Shown in pieces: positions 21,876 through 30,006 of a stretch of 44,315 nt of DNA. Source of the DNA: a virus; the IMG/VR virus record IMGVR_UViG_3300030430_002936, positions 10,688 to 55,002 of that record; one strand, given 5' to 3'. The position numbers and the translations under genes are program-made. The notes under the pieces are model-generated. The model worked only from the letters and a program-made list of their open reading frames with translations, had not been told where the DNA came from and did not search any database. The first letter of the stretch is position 1; each line of letters begins with the position of its first letter.

Positions 21876-21904
21876 ATTATAACTAAGTGGTTACTAAATG
21901 TAAA
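21876..21904 (-). promoter_or_regulatory. Early promoter with exact TTAC-N5-GTAA operator
   Basis: Minus strand TTTACA, 17-bp spacer, TATAAT (perfect -10). The dyad TTAC-ATTTA-GTAA spans 21891-21903 and covers the -35 box. The leader to the next ATG is about 30 bp with GGGAGAA as ribosome site. Confidence 0.8.
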
Positions 21905-21975
21905 GTAGGGCCTGGTGGATCACCATAGCCTCGGATCCTGGGTGTTTCTATATGTGTGTATATATATAGTTGCTT

Positions 21976-22004
21976 AAAAAAAGAGAGCAACCCCGAAGGG
22001 TTGC
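21976..22004 (-). terminator. Intrinsic terminator with UUCG tetraloop
   Basis: GCAACCC-TTCG-GGGTTGC followed by TCTCTTTTTTT on the minus strand, about 20 bp after the stop of the gene at 22022-22276. Strong rho-independent terminator. Confidence 0.9.
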
Positions 22005-22021
22005 CCGACCTCCGACTCCGA

Positions 22022-22276
22022 CTAAAAAAATCTTTTTTTATTGAAATCGTATGTTTTTAAAATATCGCAAACAAGCCATTGCCAACAAAACGACTCGCTA
22101 TTATCTGCACTCGAAATTGCAAGACACCCACAATCTAAATGCTTTTGGTCTAAGAAGAAATCGTAGTCAATATCCTCATCAGAGTTGATGTGTCCAAACA
22201 TTTCAAATGTTCCTTGTTTAAGTTCAAGCTTCATATAAAACTCGTGATGTTCTATTCTATCTAGGTATTCCGACAT
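22022..22276 (-). CDS. Small early protein, unknown function
   Basis: The ATG at 22276 is chosen because GGAG lies 6 bp upstream and the upstream gene stops one base earlier; a start at 22300 would overlap that gene by 23 bp. The 84-residue product begins MSEYLDRIEHHEFYMKLELK and contains CGCLAISSADNSESFCWQW. It has several Cys and Trp residues and an acidic centre. The stop TAG is part of the TAGTCGGAGTCGG motif. No family recognised. Confidence 0.55.
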   Translation of the reverse strand: MSEYLDRIEHHEFYMKLELKQGTFEMFGHINSDEDIDYDFFLDQKHLDCGCLAISSADNSESFCWQWLVCDILKTYDFNKKRFF

Positions 22277-22277
22277 A

Positions 22278-22577
22278 CTAAGCTCCAAAATGGTCAACAA
22301 GAATTCTGATACTCTTGTAAGCGTGTTCTTCTAGTTCTTCTGTTGGTATATCATTAGGGTTTTCAACACCATACCATTCGCTATAATGTTTTTCTTCTTG
22401 CTCACCAATCAGATAACTTAGACTACCTACGGCTTTGCTTAGCTCTTGGTTTTGGATTACTGACTTTACTCCAAAGTAATAACCAACATCATATTCTTTA
22501 TCATCAGTTTCTGATTTAAGAACAACGTCTATAAGTTCGTCAGTCAAGTTAGCTTTGGCTTCTTTTAATAGTTTCAT
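22278..22577 (-). CDS. Small acidic early protein, unknown function
   Basis: A 99-residue helical protein starting MKLLKEAKANLTDELIDVVL, with DVGYYFGVKSVIQNQELSKA and many acidic residues. CGGAGAAACATT precedes the ATG. It is the first gene of a two-gene unit behind a perfect -10 promoter (22600-22628). No domain is recognised. Confidence 0.6.
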   Translation of the reverse strand: MKLLKEAKANLTDELIDVVLKSETDDKEYDVGYYFGVKSVIQNQELSKAVGSLSYLIGEQEEKHYSEWYGVENPNDIPTEELEEHAYKSIRILVDHFGA

Positions 22578-22599
22578 AATGTTTCTCCGTTAAGATTTA

Positions 22600-22628
22600 A
22601 TTATAACATACATGTTACTATTTGTAAA
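22600..22628 (-). promoter_or_regulatory. Early promoter with exact TTAC-N5-GTAA operator
   Basis: Minus strand TTTACA, 17 bp, TATAAT. The dyad TTAC-AAATA-GTAA (22615-22627) covers the -35 box. Best overall match of the family; it drives 22278-22577 and 22022-22276. Confidence 0.85.
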
Positions 22629-22713
22629 AAACCACTTTTGTCATCCAAATCGAGAACCATTTTCTGGAACCACCTGGTCTATTGTTTTTGTGTGTTTACA
22701 TTCTGATCCAAAT

Positions 22714-22740
22714 AAAAAAAGGGCAGTCCGAAAACTGCCC
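22714..22740 (-). terminator. Intrinsic terminator
   Basis: Minus strand GGGCAGT-TTTCGG-ACTGCCC followed by seven T residues. It ends the three-gene unit 23304-22759. Confidence 0.9.
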
Positions 22741-22758
22741 CGATTATTCCGACTCCGA

Positions 22759-22821
22759 CTAACCTAACCAATAATCAACGATTACAACCAGAACGATTAG
22801 AGTAATAAGCATGACCTCCAT
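22759..22821 (-). CDS. 20-residue single-TM micropeptide (DYWLG type)
   Basis: ATG at 22821 overlaps the stop of the upstream gene (TAATG); stop TAG at 22759 runs into GTCGG. Product MEVMLITLIVLVVIVDYWLG: a hydrophobic helix with a conserved-looking DYWLG end. It closely resembles the micropeptide at 26607-26678 on the other strand (9 of 20 aligned positions identical, most others conservative). AAAAGAG lies 8 bp upstream. Probably an inner-membrane peptide that modulates a host membrane protein; the pairing of two copies is the main support. Confidence 0.55.
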   Translation of the reverse strand: MEVMLITLIVLVVIVDYWLG

Positions 22822-23168
22822 TAAATTGCTCTTTTAATGTTATCAGTCAAATTATTATATCGCTCTGCAAAATAATCTATAACATATTCAAATTCATATA
22901 TTGGCTTTTTGTAACTATCACATCCCCAATAACCTTCGACAACTTGCTCTCTGGTGTTTAGCCAAATAACTGGCCCACCCCCAGCAAGTAAAATTATAAC
23001 TCCAGTTACATTATTCCATTGGTCAATTACATATTCCCAACTGTAAGGCTCATAATAGTTTTTTTCTTCTGGTTCAGAAAATTGCATTCTTCCGCTTGAA
23101 CAATCATCAGCATAACCGTCAACCATTTCTCGTAGTCTTATTTCACAATCTGTTAATTTTTCAGCCAT
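22821..23168 (-). CDS. Early protein, conserved-looking phage family, unknown function
   Basis: A 115-residue protein starting MAEKLTDCEIRLREMVDGYA. The middle holds WEYVIDQWNNVTGVIILLAG and PVIWLNTREQVVEGYWG; the end is YVIDYFAERYNNL. It looks like a compact alpha/beta fold. Its start overlaps the upstream small ORF by 8 bp and its stop overlaps the micropeptide start, so three genes are coupled. Confidence 0.6.
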   Translation of the reverse strand: MAEKLTDCEIRLREMVDGYADDCSSGRMQFSEPEEKNYYEPYSWEYVIDQWNNVTGVIILLAGGGPVIWLNTREQVVEGYWGCDSYKKPIYEFEYVIDYFAERYNNLTDNIKRAI

Positions 23169-23304
23169 TCAAACGCCTCCTGGCTCTCGCCCTTTTATTT
23201 TTAATGTGGACTTTGGCTTGGCGTAATGAATTAAACTCCAGACCGTCTATAAAAATACGGTAATGACCGTACTTATTTTTTTCATATTTAAGTTTTTCAC
23301 TCAT
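23161..23304 (-). CDS. 47-residue basic early protein
   Basis: ATG at 23304 behind CGGAGAAAAAGAT; stop TGA at 23161 inside the start of the next gene (ATGGCTGA overlap). Product begins MSEKLKYEKNKYGHYRIFID and continues GLEFNSLRQAKVHIKNKRAR, with a strongly basic C-terminus. Length and charge suggest a nucleic-acid or regulatory role. First gene of the unit behind promoter 23335-23363. Confidence 0.6.
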   Translation of the reverse strand: MSEKLKYEKNKYGHYRIFIDGLEFNSLRQAKVHIKNKRARARRRLNG

Positions 23305-23334
23305 ATCTTTTTCTCCGTTTATTAGTGAGCTTTT

Positions 23335-23363
23335 ATAATACCTAATTGGTTACTATTTGTCAA
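23335..23363 (-). promoter_or_regulatory. Early promoter (TTGACA-17-TATTAT)
   Basis: Perfect -35, 17-bp spacer, TATTAT. The -35 side TTGACAAATAGTAACC matches the family; the dyad has one mismatch (TGAC-AAATA-GTAA). It drives 23304-22759. Confidence 0.8.
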
Positions 23364-23464
23364 CATATTACAGAGCAAATGCGTATTGATTCTGGCGGTA
23401 ATGTCAGCCTGGGCAGCTAGAACTGCGTGTGATCCTTATTGTGTACTTTAGATATTTAAAAGAT

Positions 23465-23490
23465 AAAAAAAAGGGGAGCAAAAGCTCCCC
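23465..23490 (-). terminator. Intrinsic terminator
   Basis: Minus strand GGGGAGC-TTTT-GCTCCCC followed by eight T residues, about 20 bp after the stop of the 23507-23692 gene. Confidence 0.9.
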
Positions 23491-23506
23491 CCGACTGCTC
23501 CCGACT

Positions 23507-23692
23507 TTAATCTTGAATTGGCATATCAGCTTTTTCAGTTAAAAAATCTCTGCCTAAAAGTCCTTCTTCTTCTACAAATGTTTCAAATATTTGCAGTTCT
23601 TTTAAAAAGTTTTTAGTCAAACTTTCTTCTAAAACTTTTCGAAAAACTTCGGCAGATAATCTGTCAGGACAATTAATAGTAAATCTAATCAT
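23507..23692 (-). CDS. Small early protein, unknown function
   Basis: A 61-residue protein starting MIRFTINCPDRLSAEVFRKV, then LEESLTKNFLKELQIFETF and an acidic end. AGCGGAGAAAAA precedes the ATG. It is alone between promoter 23719-23747 and a strong terminator. Resembles a small alpha/beta fold; no family recognised. Confidence 0.6.
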   Translation of the reverse strand: MIRFTINCPDRLSAEVFRKVLEESLTKNFLKELQIFETFVEEEGLLGRDFLTEKADMPIQD

Positions 23693-23718
23693 TTTTTCTC
23701 CGCTTAATTTATGAATCC

Positions 23719-23747
23719 ATTATGTCAGCTAGTTTACTATTTGTCAA
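23719..23747 (-). promoter_or_regulatory. Early promoter (TTGACA-17-CATAAT)
   Basis: Perfect -35, 17-bp spacer and CATAAT. TTGACAAATAGTAAAC is nearly identical to the other early promoters over 14 bases. Drives the 23507-23692 gene. Confidence 0.8.
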
Positions 23748-23836
23748 CTATTTTTTTTTGCAACCAAATTGATCCAGAGAAGTTGATCTGGTGGATCAAG
23801 ACCTGGAGATCCAAACTGGTGTGTTATAATTGTGTT

Positions 23837-23936
23837 AATTAACTCCAGAAACCACGCCCGACAAGTCCCAACAGCAGTCCCGACATGTGAGCCGACTTTG
23901 TTGATCCTATTCAGTTGGGAAAAACTGCTTTTTTTT
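23837..23936 (+). ncRNA. Candidate plus-strand small RNA with CCGAC motifs
   Basis: An extended -10 box (TG-T-TATAAT, 23822-23830) without a clear -35, then about 100 bases ending in CAGTT-GGGAAA-AACTG and a run of eight T residues. The RNA would carry three CCGAC copies that are complementary to the GTCGG motifs at the 3' ends of the leftward early mRNAs. The terminator stem is only 5 bp, so the call is tentative. Confidence 0.25.
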
Positions 23937-24025
23937 ATAGTAAGCGACCAAACGAGAGGGGTAATGCGATTTCCTTTTCTGATAGCAACGACTGAATATT
24001 TTTTATTATTTTTTATAGTTACTTA

Positions 24026-24053
24026 TTGTAATCTCATGAATAGTGTCTATAAT
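24026..24053 (+). promoter_or_regulatory. Rightward early promoter with exact TTAC-N5-GTAA operator
   Basis: TTGTAA, 16-bp spacer, TATAAT; the dyad TTAC-TTATT-GTAA (24019-24031) covers the -35. It drives the operon from 24088. The same dyad in the other direction gives a possible minus-strand -35 (ATTACA) with ATAATA 17 bp away. Confidence 0.75.
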
Positions 24054-24087
24054 ATACAGATAGTAATCATTCATTTACGGAGAATAT

Positions 24088-24507
24088 ATGAAAAACTTAA
24101 TACAAGAACTATGTGAGAAGGAAGCAAAACTCACTTTTTATAACGACCATTTGAAATGCTTAGTTGAGTTTCAATGGGACTTTGAAAGGAAGGTTTTAGG
24201 AACAGAACTAAGATTTTCTTTAGCCAACAAACAGAAAGAAATTGATAAAAAACTTGAAGAAGTTAGAACTCAATTAGCTTTTCTGAACTCAAGCTTTGAA
24301 GTTAAATACGGTTACAGCTTTATTAAAGAATTTAACAGACAAGCTTGGATAAACGAACAAGCCAACAAATTAAACCAAATAGATTGGGAAGAATGCGAAG
24401 ATTTTTATTTGGAAAGTTATCAAAAAGATTTACAAAGATATGATGACCAAAGAGATCAAGCCATTAAGTTTTTTGGAGAAAAATTTGTTAATGGAGAATT
24501 AGACTAA
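24088..24507 (+). CDS. Helical early protein, unknown function
   Basis: A 139-residue charged helical protein starting MKNLIQELCEKEAKLTFYND, with coiled-coil-like KQKEIDKKLEEVRTQLAFL. ACGGAGAATAT precedes the ATG. First gene of the rightward operon; stop overlaps the next start (TAATGA). No domain recognised. Confidence 0.65.
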   Translation: MKNLIQELCEKEAKLTFYNDHLKCLVEFQWDFERKVLGTELRFSLANKQKEIDKKLEEVRTQLAFLNSSFEVKYGYSFIKEFNRQAWINEQANKLNQIDWEECEDFYLESYQKDLQRYDDQRDQAIKFFGEKFVNGELD

Positions 24508-24779
24508 TGAGCAGTAATAAAAGTCTATTGAGAAAAGAAATAAGATCAATAATCCAAATTATTGATACTAGAAATTTATCAGACGAACAAAGCGAAAAAC
24601 AATATGACGATTGGTGGTGTGGCGAAAAAGATGAATGCTATCTAACCAACAAAATGTTTGATTGTTGTGAAGATATTATGTCGTCTGACGAATGGGACAA
24701 AGCGAGAATTTTTTGGGATAGAGCAACGCCTAATGAAACTCTTGATTACATTGAAGATTTTATTAACAAACAAGAATAG
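24507..24779 (+). CDS. Small early protein, unknown function
   Basis: A 90-residue protein starting MSSNKSLLRKEIRSIIQIID, rich in Trp and Asp in the middle (YDDWWCGEKDECYLTNKMFD). Translationally coupled to the preceding gene by a one-base overlap. No family recognised. Confidence 0.6.
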   Translation: MSSNKSLLRKEIRSIIQIIDTRNLSDEQSEKQYDDWWCGEKDECYLTNKMFDCCEDIMSSDEWDKARIFWDRATPNETLDYIEDFINKQE

Positions 24780-24787
24780 GAGGAGAT

Positions 24788-24955
24788 ATGTTCAATATAG
24801 TTGAAGTTATAAGAAAAAAGGGAGATGACATCAATAAATCTTATGTGGTAGTTGATGTTGCCACGAGAAAAACCGTAGCTGATTTCAACCACAAGTACCA
24901 AGCAGAAATGTTTATTACAAGAAAGACAGATTACAAAGCAATAGAGGAGAAATAA
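24788..24955 (+). CDS. 55-residue early protein
   Basis: ATG at 24788 behind AGGAGGAGAT, an excellent ribosome site; TAA at 24955. Product begins MFNIVEVIRKKGDDINKSYV and continues VVDVATRKTVADFNHKYQA. A small mixed alpha/beta protein. It fits exactly between neighbours, and the next ATG follows one base after its stop. Function unknown. Confidence 0.65.
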   Translation: MFNIVEVIRKKGDDINKSYVVVDVATRKTVADFNHKYQAEMFITRKTDYKAIEEK

Positions 24956-24956
24956 A

Positions 24957-25148
24957 ATGAATGAACAGAAACTTTATGAGAAGGCAAAGAAAATTGCTTT
25001 TCAAAAGAAGTGTTCTACCAACCAAATCTTAAAACCTTTACTAGTAAAGCATGGGTTTGAAGATGAAAATGGTTATGCTCTCAAGACTATTTGCATACAA
25101 GTAGGTCTTACCGAAAACCTAGATCAAATTCCTACGGAGGAGAAATAA
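24957..25148 (+). CDS. 63-residue early protein
   Basis: Starts MNEQKLYEKAKKIAFQKKCS behind GAGGAGAAATAA; helical with a helix-turn-like second half (STNQILKPLLVKHGFEDENG). Its stop overlaps the next start (TAATG). Function unknown. Confidence 0.6.
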   Translation: MNEQKLYEKAKKIAFQKKCSTNQILKPLLVKHGFEDENGYALKTICIQVGLTENLDQIPTEEK

Positions 25149-25414
25149 TGAAAGCCACAAGAAAATATTACATTAGAGTAAGGGCAGAGTATGTTGGCTA
25201 TTACGAAGTAGAAGCCAAAGATATTTCAGAAGCAGAAGATAAAGCAAGTGATCTATTGCACGAAGATATGAATGATCCGATTTATGGTGATTTTGATTTT
25301 GAGCAATACGATCCTAGAGATTCTTTGCCTTATAACGAAAGTAATAATCCCGATAAGTACCAAAGCATAGGATCAGATAACCAAGATATTTTTATACAAG
25401 AGGAGAAAGCATGA
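25148..25414 (+). CDS. Small acidic early protein
   Basis: ATG at 25148 (GGAGGAGAAATA upstream, TAATG overlap) is chosen over an out-of-context start at 25091. The 88-residue product begins MKATRKYYIRVRAEYVGYYE and contains VEAKDISEAEDKASDLLHED. The first half has the beta-strand then a.s..eA...A form of small phage domains such as DpdA-adjacent or DUF-type proteins; no exact name is offered. Confidence 0.6.
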   Translation: MKATRKYYIRVRAEYVGYYEVEAKDISEAEDKASDLLHEDMNDPIYGDFDFEQYDPRDSLPYNESNNPDKYQSIGSDNQDIFIQEEKA

Positions 25415-25647
25415 AACACAAATACGTAAAAGTACATTGGGAAACCGAAGAACTTGATAGATATTACAGAAAAAATGACTATCCTGAAAAAGTTTGGAAG
25501 GACAACGAAGGTATGCCATTTGGTATTTATCTTCTAGAGATATTTGATGAAGAAGATGATTTTGGGTCTATCGAATATGTAGAATGGTTCCGTACCGAAG
25601 AAGAAAGAGACAAAGAATTTAGCAAATTAATTAAAGAGGTAGCATGA
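25411..25647 (+). CDS. Small acidic early protein
   Basis: A 78-residue protein starting MKHKYVKVHWETEELDRYYR, with FGIYLLEIFDEEDDFGSIEY and a helical C-terminus. It overlaps both neighbours by 4 bp (ATGA). Function unknown. Confidence 0.6.
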   Translation: MKHKYVKVHWETEELDRYYRKNDYPEKVWKDNEGMPFGIYLLEIFDEEDDFGSIEYVEWFRTEEERDKEFSKLIKEVA

Positions 25648-26030
25648 GTACAAAATTAAAAGAACTTAGCCATGATTTATCTTACTTAATAGATTATTTA
25701 GAGAAAAATGATTTGATTGGTTGCACTACGACAGCAGAAACAATGGCAATTGATCTGAAAAATGATTTTTGGAAAGACGAATGGGAAGCTGACTACGAAG
25801 ATGAAGAAGGTCTCACAGAAAAATTTTATGAAGATTTCCACGAGTACTGCCCTGAGTATTTACATTGTGATAGTTGTGATAAATACGGCATGAGCGGTAA
25901 TATGATTTTTGACGGAGATTTTTATTGCGACTTGTGTCATTTAAAGGATCACTTAGAAGATTTAGAAAAATTAGTTAACGATTTAGATAATCAATTTTTA
26001 GATGATCTAAGGAGAATGGTATATCGCTAA
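25644..26030 (+). CDS. Early protein with a treble-clef/zinc-ribbon-like CxxC pair
   Basis: A 128-residue acidic protein. Residues 70-100 read PEYLHCDSCDKYGMSGNMIFDG then FYCDLCHLKDH: Cys75-x2-Cys78 and Cys95-x2-Cys98, likely one zinc site. The N-terminal half (about 1-65) is helical and acidic, and the C-terminus is helical. Such zinc proteins in phage early operons often bind RNA, DNA or host transcription factors; which applies here is unknown. Confidence 0.6.
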   Translation: MSTKLKELSHDLSYLIDYLEKNDLIGCTTTAETMAIDLKNDFWKDEWEADYEDEEGLTEKFYEDFHEYCPEYLHCDSCDKYGMSGNMIFDGDFYCDLCHLKDHLEDLEKLVNDLDNQFLDDLRRMVYR

Positions 26031-26248
26031 TGCAGAACTTAAAACTTAAACAAGTACAAGATGCCATAGAGTATCTGAGAACAATACAAAGCGATCTGAA
26101 TCCAAGAAAAGCTAAGTTAGGCAATAAACCAATAGTTTGGATTTCGGTTAATAATCAAGAAGATTTCAGTTTGCTTTCTCAAGCTATAAAGAGCATGAGG
26201 AATGTAAAGTGGATTGGTATAATATTAGAAACAGAGGAGGTAATATGA
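26030..26248 (+). CDS. Small early protein, unknown function
   Basis: A 72-residue alpha/beta protein starting MQNLKLKQVQDAIEYLRTIQ, with KPIVWISVNNQEDFSLLSQA in the middle. Start and stop overlap both neighbours (TAATG, ATGA). No family recognised. Confidence 0.6.
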   Translation: MQNLKLKQVQDAIEYLRTIQSDLNPRKAKLGNKPIVWISVNNQEDFSLLSQAIKSMRNVKWIGIILETEEVI

Positions 26249-26607
26249 AGCCATATATGTATGTAACACATAACGAGGGAGTCAATCAAAATGCGATTTT
26301 TGGATCAAGTTTAATTGGCTACGTTAAATGTTCTTATCAAGAGTTGATTGATGCTTTTGGAGAACCACAGATAATAGACTTATCATCTTCAGACGGTAAG
26401 ACTGATGTCGAATGGGAGATTGAGTTTCAAGACGGAACTTATCTACACATTTACAATTGGAAAAACGGTAAGAACTATTTAGGTGAAGAAGGTCGTGAAG
26501 TTGAAGATATGACTGAATGGAATGTTGGCGGTCATACAGCAAAAGACTTGGATAAGCTTAAATTAGTTTTCCAAATGAACAAAATCAAAGCCCTAATAAG
26601 CCATTAA
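26245..26607 (+). CDS. Phage protein of the YxELxxxFGEP type
   Basis: The ATG at 26245 follows GAGGAGGTAAT and overlaps the previous stop as ATGA. The 120-residue product contains CSYQELIDAFGEPQIID, DVEWEIEFQDGTYLHIYNWK and NYLGEEGREVEDMTEW. This layout (ty.eL...FGeP....d...eW...F.dG....IY.wk.g..y.G) is widespread in phages, without a function that I can name. It lies at the end of the rightward operon. Confidence 0.6.
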   Translation: MKPYMYVTHNEGVNQNAIFGSSLIGYVKCSYQELIDAFGEPQIIDLSSSDGKTDVEWEIEFQDGTYLHIYNWKNGKNYLGEEGREVEDMTEWNVGGHTAKDLDKLKLVFQMNKIKALISH

Positions 26608-26678
26608 TGGTAGGTTGGGAAATTGTATTGCTTACATTAATCGGAATAGCTTTCTTAATTGACTACTATTTGGGTTAG
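26607..26678 (+). CDS. 23-residue single-TM micropeptide (DYYLG type)
   Basis: ATG at 26607 overlaps the stop of the preceding gene (TAATG); TAG at 26676-26678. The product is MVGWEIV followed by LLTLIGIAFLIDYYLG: one hydrophobic helix with an Asp-Tyr-aromatic-Leu-Gly end. It closely resembles the peptide at 22759-22821 on the other strand. Both are last in their operon and start on a stop-start overlap. Confidence 0.55.
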   Translation: MVGWEIVLLTLIGIAFLIDYYLG

Positions 26679-26712: not shown

Positions 26713-26760
26713 GAAGTAGAGCGATACTTGTCTTTTTCTCCCCTTTTATTGCTCTACTTC
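26713..26760. terminator. Inverted repeat between rightward operon and terS; possible terminator
   Basis: GAAGTAGAGC (26713-26722) and GCTCTACTTC (26751-26760) are perfect 10-bp arms around a 28-base loop. The right arm lies inside the last codons of terS. On the minus strand the stem is followed by GTTTTGTATTTT, fitting termination of terS transcripts; on the plus strand no U-tract follows, though the loop is T-rich. Confidence 0.5.
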
Positions 26761-27315
26761 ACTTTCTAAATCACTCACATTATTATTTTCTAAAGCGTTA
26801 TCTTGAATAACTTGTGCTTCTATTGTCTGGCCAAGCAGACTTTCCAGGCGATTTTCGACTTCTTCTCTACTCATCTGATCTATTTTTCCAAACATTACTT
26901 CCTTACGATCTACAATCAGACCCCCGACTCTTAATAAACTATTCTGAGCAGAGATTGCAGCGTTAAATGAACCAGCCTCTAAAGCTTTGTCCCGAATGTC
27001 ATAAAGGTCTTGTACGGCACGATCATAATTTAGTTCATACTTTTTCTTAACTTCATTCATAAGGTAGTTGTATTCGGATCTAATCAGAGGATTGCTCATG
27101 AGTTTGTTTGCAGCTTGTCGTGGATCCTTATAGCCAGCTTTCGCTGCCGACTCAATCAAAGATAGTCTAGGATTATTGACAGCAGTCCAAATGAATATTC
27201 TTTGTCTGCGATTTAATTTCTTATCCAGGTTGCAAGTTTCGATAGGGGGAGTATCTTTTTCAGCAAGTAGATTGCCTTCGTAAGTTGTATCATGTTTCTT
27301 TTGATAATCTGCCAT
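26746..27315 (-). CDS. terS: Terminase small subunit
   Basis: A 189-residue protein. Residues about 31-75 (KLNRRQRIFIWTAVNNPRLS, LIESAAKAGYKDPRQAANKL, then MSNPLIRSEY) form the helix-turn-helix of terminase small subunits (l..kQ..Fi......n...AA..AGY.......a.kLm..p.i). A coiled helical segment (about 80-130) for oligomerisation and an acidic C-terminus follow. It recognises the packaging site and works with TerL, which is encoded over 9 kb away on the same strand. The gene sits alone between early operons. No clear ribosome site precedes the ATG. Confidence 0.8.
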   Translation of the reverse strand: MADYQKKHDTTYEGNLLAEKDTPPIETCNLDKKLNRRQRIFIWTAVNNPRLSLIESAAKAGYKDPRQAANKLMSNPLIRSEYNYLMNEVKKKYELNYDRAVQDLYDIRDKALEAGSFNAAISAQNSLLRVGGLIVDRKEVMFGKIDQMSREEVENRLESLLGQTIEAQVIQDNALENNNVSDLESEVEQ

Positions 27316-29746: not shown

Positions 29747-29921
29747 AAATAATTTTATAGAAGTAGAATTAGACATAAGAAAAGGCGATTTAATGAATTC
29801 TACTATGATTTATTTAACAGTAAAAGATTTAGAAGATGTAGAAAGATTTAAAAACCTTTGCTACAACAACAAAAAAGTTTATTTATTTGCAGAAGAAAAG
29901 GAAGATAATGAGAGAAGATAA
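29724..29921 (+). CDS. Small protein, unknown function
   Basis: A 65-residue protein starting MEIIKVNKNNFIEVELDIRK, with YLTVKDLEDVERFKNLCYN. It overlaps the previous gene by 23 bp, and its last 14 bp also code for the start of the next membrane peptide. Function unknown. Confidence 0.5.
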   Translation: MEIIKVNKNNFIEVELDIRKGDLMNSTMIYLTVKDLEDVERFKNLCYNNKKVYLFAEEKEDNERR

Positions 29922-30006
29922 GTGGGCTATAGCTTTGGGAATATGTATCTTAATAGGATTGCTAATACTTTCTTGGAATATAGCGACTGGAATAGTCAGC
30001 TTATGA
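29908..30006 (+). CDS. 32-residue single-TM peptide
   Basis: ATG at 29908 behind AAAAGGAAGATA; TGA at 30006. The product is MREDKWAIALGICILIGLLI followed by LSWNIATGIVSL: a short charged head and one hydrophobic helix. Its stop overlaps the next start (ATGA). A longer GTG-started frame at 29922 was rejected in favour of this pair. Confidence 0.5.
   Translation: MREDKWAIALGICILIGLLILSWNIATGIVSL

Follow-up and report, generated by a model that had tools for sequence, protein, structure and literature searches.

Introduction

The 2022 catalogue of Fremin et al. (cited in PMC11188072) reportedly covers predicted small genes in global phage genomes, objects of the kind treated here, namely very small conserved phage genes. 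The systems closest to the genes studied here are the Ibs/Sho type I toxins (IbsC, 19 amino acids (aa); ShoB, 26 aa), whose unusually small genes encode about 20 residues with one short hydrophobic helix. Hydrophobic intergenic microproteins of 15 to 70 codons, mostly predicted to be membrane proteins and under purifying selection, have been described in the Enterobacteriaceae, some of them starting at most 10 nucleotides (nt) from an upstream stop (Fesenko et al., PMC11188072). Lambda CIII and SpoVM, membrane-associated inhibitors of FtsH, offer a works-like model, in which a short peptide of phage or host origin inhibits a host membrane protease (PMC1838920). An early gene of phage PhiNM1 encodes Gp11, a small membrane protein by which enzymes of the host envelope are inhibited (PMC11237401). 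Here we analyse two micropeptide genes carried by a marine virus of bacteria, on a stretch of 44,315 nt (the window) that comprises bases 10688 to 55002 of the 55,002-base viral metagenome record IMGVR_UViG_3300030430_002936. The left gene (22759 to 22821, minus strand) encodes the 20-aa peptide MEVMLITLIVLVVIVDYWLG, and the right gene (26607 to 26678, plus strand) encodes MVGWEIVLLTLIGIAFLIDYYLG, with a full length of 23 aa.

Compared with the Ibs/Sho toxins, the micropeptides are acid-flanked, operon-terminal and translation-coupled; an antisense RNA was not found, and sequence similarity was not seen. Unlike the Enterobacteriaceae microproteins, they are phage genes, present as two paralogs at fixed positions in one genome, and the position outlasts the sequence. 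CIII (54 aa) and SpoVM have amphipathic helices, whereas the micropeptides are uniformly hydrophobic between two acids and are not amphipathic. Gp11 comes from a Staphylococcus phage and is likened by description, with no claim of a sequence relation. Hydrophobic microproteins beside gene ends are already a known kind; the present family and its paired placement appear to be new. Genes of 20 codons escape standard annotation, and it is conservation, paralogy, selection and position that jointly reveal two real ones here.

Conservation and selection of the micropeptide genes

The original prediction, made from the letters of the window, held that two short open reading frames (ORFs) on opposite strands encode related membrane peptides of a real, undescribed family. 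Both ORFs were located at the coordinates given above, each the last in its cluster and each starting on a TAATG in which one base is shared with the stop codon before it (TTTAATG, ATTAATG). Homologs were found in at least a dozen contigs, with relatives holding both copies. In the right family, 11 distinct DNA variants, in which synonymous changes numbered 20 and nonsynonymous ones 16 (72% nonsynonymous being expected), gave an omega of ~0.30 (P=4e-4), and in the left family 8 variants gave an omega of ~0.35 (P=8e-4). These codon changes were counted on minimum spanning trees, which are approximate, so that the omegas are rough. Purifying selection was also seen in two of the other micropeptide types that occupy these gene ends in relatives, the LEV type (omega 0.44) and the DRPNQK type (omega 0.17), and the hydrophobic or polar class was preserved in 13 of the 15 residue changes of the right family. 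Both micropeptides are real protein-coding genes under purifying selection. What had been named in advance as speaking against the family, an absence of homologs in relatives or equal synonymous and nonsynonymous rates, was thus not what we observed.

The left micropeptide (contigs and loci are designated by L numbers) is kept in L082, L083, L084, L300 and L306, and is found as MEIVLLTLIALVVLVDYLLS or a near form in L095, L096, L100, L256 and L311. Its start is assigned to M1, because M4 is replaced by I in L083 and by L in L300.

Outside this group the searches were negative. The PHROG profile search gave no confident match (best phrog_25022, E=0.064, right peptide), the Pfam and Rfam searches gave none, and neither a tblastn search of the phage collection with the right-type peptide nor the near-DNA search in phages returned a match. 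Among cellular sequences, 0 of 83 candidate stretches were confirmed as relatives, in a search whose sensitivity is limited by the short queries. The cultured relatives HTVC027P, HTVC023P, DSL-LC04 and 023Pt_psg01 held no clear family member; DSL-LC04 has one GTG-start membrane micro-ORF, MGFWALTFIFLLLPWVLFI, and HTVC027P has one weaker candidate.

Kinship and common plan of the two peptides

The predicted nine identities between the peptides were reproduced, with 9 of the 20 aligned residues identical. The hydrophobic core of the window pair accounts for 4 of 13 (shuffled mean 2.3, P=0.17), and the flanks match at 5 of 6 positions. In the relatives, the left MEIVLLTLIALVVLVDYLLS and the right WEIVLVALIGIVVLVDYYLG are identical at 13 of 20 residues, with 9 of 13 in the core (P=5e-4). 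Kinship is therefore argued from the flanks and from the relatives' copies, as the core of the window pair proves nothing by itself. Judged by these alignments, the left and right genes are paralogs. Since the left group and the right group are each orthologous across the relatives, the duplication predates the relatives' group.

The peptides follow a common plan: an invariant E, 13 hydrophobic residues, a fixed D, and then an aromatic residue and a short variable tail. Kyte-Doolittle hydropathy averages 3.1 to 3.6 over the 13-residue core, whose octanol transfer energy is close to -10 kcal/mol, and the peptides have a net charge of -2 or -3. The tail also was predicted to be fixed, as DY-aromatic-LG, and this had to be given up, since left relatives end in DYLLS and right relatives in DYYFG or DHYLG. 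What stands of the proposal is a real family with two paralogs, confined as a sequence family to one clade; the C-terminal motif does not stand.

Two gene ends keep membrane-type micropeptides

The left micropeptide overlaps by 1 nt the end of a gene for a 115-aa soluble protein (22821 to 23168, minus), and the right one overlaps by 1 nt the end of a 120-aa gene (26245 to 26607, plus), which by eye is unrelated to the first. A membrane micro-ORF overlaps or adjoins the end of 115-aa homologs in 24 of 63 distinct loci, among them the types LEVAIVLYLLVFLIAGRDRG, LELTIFIYLLVFLMGGRGRG and FIMALIIGLLVFLLEKPDRDRD; in L085 and L086 one extra gene intervenes before MELGCLLVLGILVLVYMFDG or a variant of it. 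The right site was recognised in relatives by the convergent terminase small subunit gene, terS, which served as a positional marker. At this end, other membrane micro-ORFs are present in the L085, L112, L058 and L065 lineages, and STLFFIALFLYVLIFVLDRPNQK or IEAIPGILIIVLILILHKVFGDK types in distant relatives; none was present there in L034 and L051. Both sites are occupied in all inspected loci that span both (the window, L082, L083, L085, L086, L095, L096, L100, L110, L113, L114 and L118). The two positions keep membrane-type micropeptides across the phage clade even where the sequences cease to align. For the other micro-ORF types, 20 residues are too few to tell homology with the DY type from independent fillers of one role.

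A membrane-type micro-ORF was counted when its start fell between -26 and +5 from a stop, and the downstream DNA was dinucleotide-shuffled for comparison. Such micro-ORFs were present at 21 of 250 non-redundant gene ends, against 0.79 +/- 0.85 in the shuffles; when an acidic residue was required at positions 2 to 6, the figures were 16 observed and 0.2 shuffled. Among clade loci and ATG starts, membrane-type micro-ORFs numbered 16 against 0.42 expected, whereas other terminal micro-ORFs (12 against 23.6 expected) were rarer than chance, and hence the non-hydrophobic kind is not enriched. Gene ends with a membrane micro-ORF made up 30/337 (8.9%) in the clade, whose loci were collected partly through searches for the genes concerned, and 3/270 (1.1%) in other viral contigs (Fisher P=1.5e-5). 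The latter came from a search of viral contigs with the degenerate pattern TAATG-NTN-GAR-(NTN)8, in which out-of-frame chance ORFs made up nearly all the matches listed; the contigs were reused as controls with the pattern's own sites excluded, and, since a hydrophobic DNA pattern had selected them, they fall somewhat short of random sampling.

An entire phage clade therefore retains micropeptide genes at defined operon ends, which yields a small group of candidate modulators of the host membrane that lends itself to testing, along with a simple rule by which others can be located.

Similar micro-ORFs were also seen elsewhere. They recur at gene ends, as MIDILIIIFIAFLVSLGERPED and MIFEFVLVCLGLLLLINYFTR types, in the more distant relatives L014, L015, L017, L018 and L021 and L009, L010 and L012, and isolated ones (MFEILFVIFVFWLIMRAWSPN, MFEFMVVVLLIYIAVKMHDNNNNRPGF) occur in the unrelated viral contigs L168 and L199.

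Possible function of the micropeptides

The reading that we favour, at somewhat less than even confidence, is that these are translation-coupled, single-span micropeptides of the inner membrane, probably early, that modulate a host membrane target. Their membrane location and early timing are predictions only, and the target classes named here, like the timing, are guesses. Translation of the left and right peptides would come about by termination-reinitiation, following the 115-aa and 120-aa genes. Peptides of such length finish inside the ribosome tunnel; being released at 20 to 24 residues before they exit it, they would have to enter the host inner membrane post-translationally, as a single hydrophobic helix (the 13 residues that separate the fixed E and the fixed D). 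There they may pack against a host membrane protein or complex, such as a transporter, channel, protease or translocase, and inhibit or re-tune it early in infection. The length should suffice for membrane action, because an IbsC variant of 15 residues, 10 of them hydrophobic, is still toxic (PMC8309996). It is also possible, if less probable, that the peptides form a two-part membrane device, in which an acid-flanked micropeptide closes each of two early operons, with paired positions fixed and sequences turning over, and the two perhaps hetero-oligomerise on a host inner-membrane target.

Several points weigh against modulation of a host membrane protein. The 13-residue span is below the usual length of a transmembrane helix and is flanked by no positive charge, and the DY-type sequence family is restricted to one phage clade. 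AT-rich DNA in general favours hydrophobic short ORFs (PMC11188072), although composition was preserved in the shuffles. Moreover, a hydrophilic gene tail read backwards appears hydrophobic; the micro-ORFs beside terS in L102 and L104 are antisense to the hydrophilic terS tail and were set aside, having no support value.

The main rival, which we consider unlikely, is that the peptides are membrane-depolarising toxins like the type I toxins IbsC and ShoB, inserting into the membrane, collapsing the proton gradient and so aiding host shut-off or lysis. Size and hydrophobicity fit IbsC, by composition the micropeptides are small hydrophobic single-span peptides as type I toxins are, and duplication is typical of such toxins. 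However, the C-termini of type I toxins are mostly cationic (IbsC, ShoB and DinQ being exceptions), which the negative net charge here does not match; neither an Rfam match nor an excess of promoter-like sites was seen that would point to an antisense or trans RNA antitoxin, and the micropeptides are operon members behind other genes rather than free-standing toxin mRNAs.

It is a little less likely still that each micropeptide serves the upstream 115-aa or 120-aa product as a small subunit or a membrane tether. The stop-start overlap would suit such a partnership, as would the frequency of membrane micro-ORFs at the ends of 115-aa loci. The left and right copies, however, sit behind unrelated genes, and L300 and L306 are apparent recombinants in which the window-type left micropeptide follows a diverged, L095-type allele of the 115-aa gene; for these reasons the upstream product is no obvious partner, and the host target of the favoured reading would be distinct from it. 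The intervening gene of L085 and L086 argues the same way, as do the absence of the micropeptide beside most distant 115-aa homologs and the absence of a fused membrane segment from 67 homolog sequences of the 115-aa protein.

It seems improbable to us that the micropeptides are minimal holins, antiholins or superinfection-exclusion factors, even if single-span membrane peptides in a phage bring these roles to mind and superinfection exclusion factors are frequently small membrane proteins. No lysis gene was recognised adjoining the micropeptides, and known holins, pinholins and exclusion proteins are far larger than 20 to 23 aa. Superinfection exclusion is in any case a special case of host-membrane modulation.

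More doubtful again is that the ORF acts as a translational device at the operon end, by placing ribosomes near the terminator or as an arrest peptide, with the peptide itself inert. The constant placement at cluster ends, the overlap with the previous stop and the ~18 nt between the left stop codon and a terminator would fit. Selection nevertheless falls on residues, the enrichment is confined to hydrophobic terminal ORFs, and the adjoining clusters that end at 23507 and 22022 run directly into terminators with no micropeptide ORF. Finally, AT-rich intergenic DNA generally encodes short ORFs that are hydrophobic (PMC11188072), and chance hits account for most of the matches listed for the raw DNA pattern in viral contigs; yet chance hydrophobic ORFs are a very improbable source of these genes given the purifying selection, the orthology, the shuffles and the viral control sample.

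Genomic setting

The 115-aa family is large in marine phages, with at least 364 related loci, and has members in Phaeobacter, Ruegeria and Vibrio phages; its core is GGGP-(I/V)(W/Y)-T-GYWG. The protein has no Pfam match. Its AlphaFold 2 (AF2) model is confident (predicted local distance difference test (pLDDT) score 93.6), but PDB matches to it went no further than E=0.07 in Foldseek and Z 4.6 in VIA-align. With no clear solved relative, and solely unnamed or 'hypothetical' viral relatives, the 115-aa protein was dropped as a functional clue.

On the minus strand, a 47-aa gene (23161 to 23304) opens the left three-gene cluster, downstream of a sigma-70-like promoter (TTGACA-17-TATTAT, 23335 to 23363; 11/12 matches, suggestive only). 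An intrinsic terminator with a 9-bp stem and a T-run (22720 to 22741) follows the left stop codon, and a similar hairpin lies downstream of the left copies in L095 and L100. Minus-strand sigma-70-like promoters with 11/12 matches occur at 23747, 23363, 22628 and 21904, while positions 23492, 22741 and 22006 have intrinsic terminators. The region may parse into small clusters, each independent of the others (61 aa; 47-115-20 aa; 99-92 aa), of which only the middle one is terminated by a micropeptide; this division is suggestive, because promoter-like sites overall are no commoner than the shuffled expectation. From 21876 to 23747 (minus), small clusters follow one another; every one has a strong sigma-70-like promoter to itself, and most have an intrinsic terminator as well.

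The rightward cluster (24088 to 26678), with a sigma-70-like promoter upstream (TTGTAA-16-TATAAT, 24026 to 24053, plus; 10/12 matches), ends with the 23-aa peptide and converges on terS (26746 to 27315, minus; phrog_51, E=4e-10; Terminase_2 below cut-off). A 14-bp hairpin (26713 to 26760) lies after the right stop codon, between the convergent genes.

A third unannotated membrane micro-gene, MREDKWAIALGICILIGLLILSWNIATGIVSL (29908 to 30006, plus), is under very strong purifying selection (omega ~0.06) and stands immediately downstream of the exonuclease gene in several relatives.

Affiliation of the virus

The terminase of the window is 57-63% identical to its counterparts in the Pelagibacter phages HTVC027P and HTVC023P and in phage DSL-LC04. 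A close relative of the window phage is the 53-kb contig L347, with a TerL 99% identical, which was binned in the metagenome-assembled genome Gammaproteobacteria bacterium TMED104; it may point to a gammaproteobacterial host instead of Pelagibacter. The MELG and MIEA micropeptides are both present on this contig.

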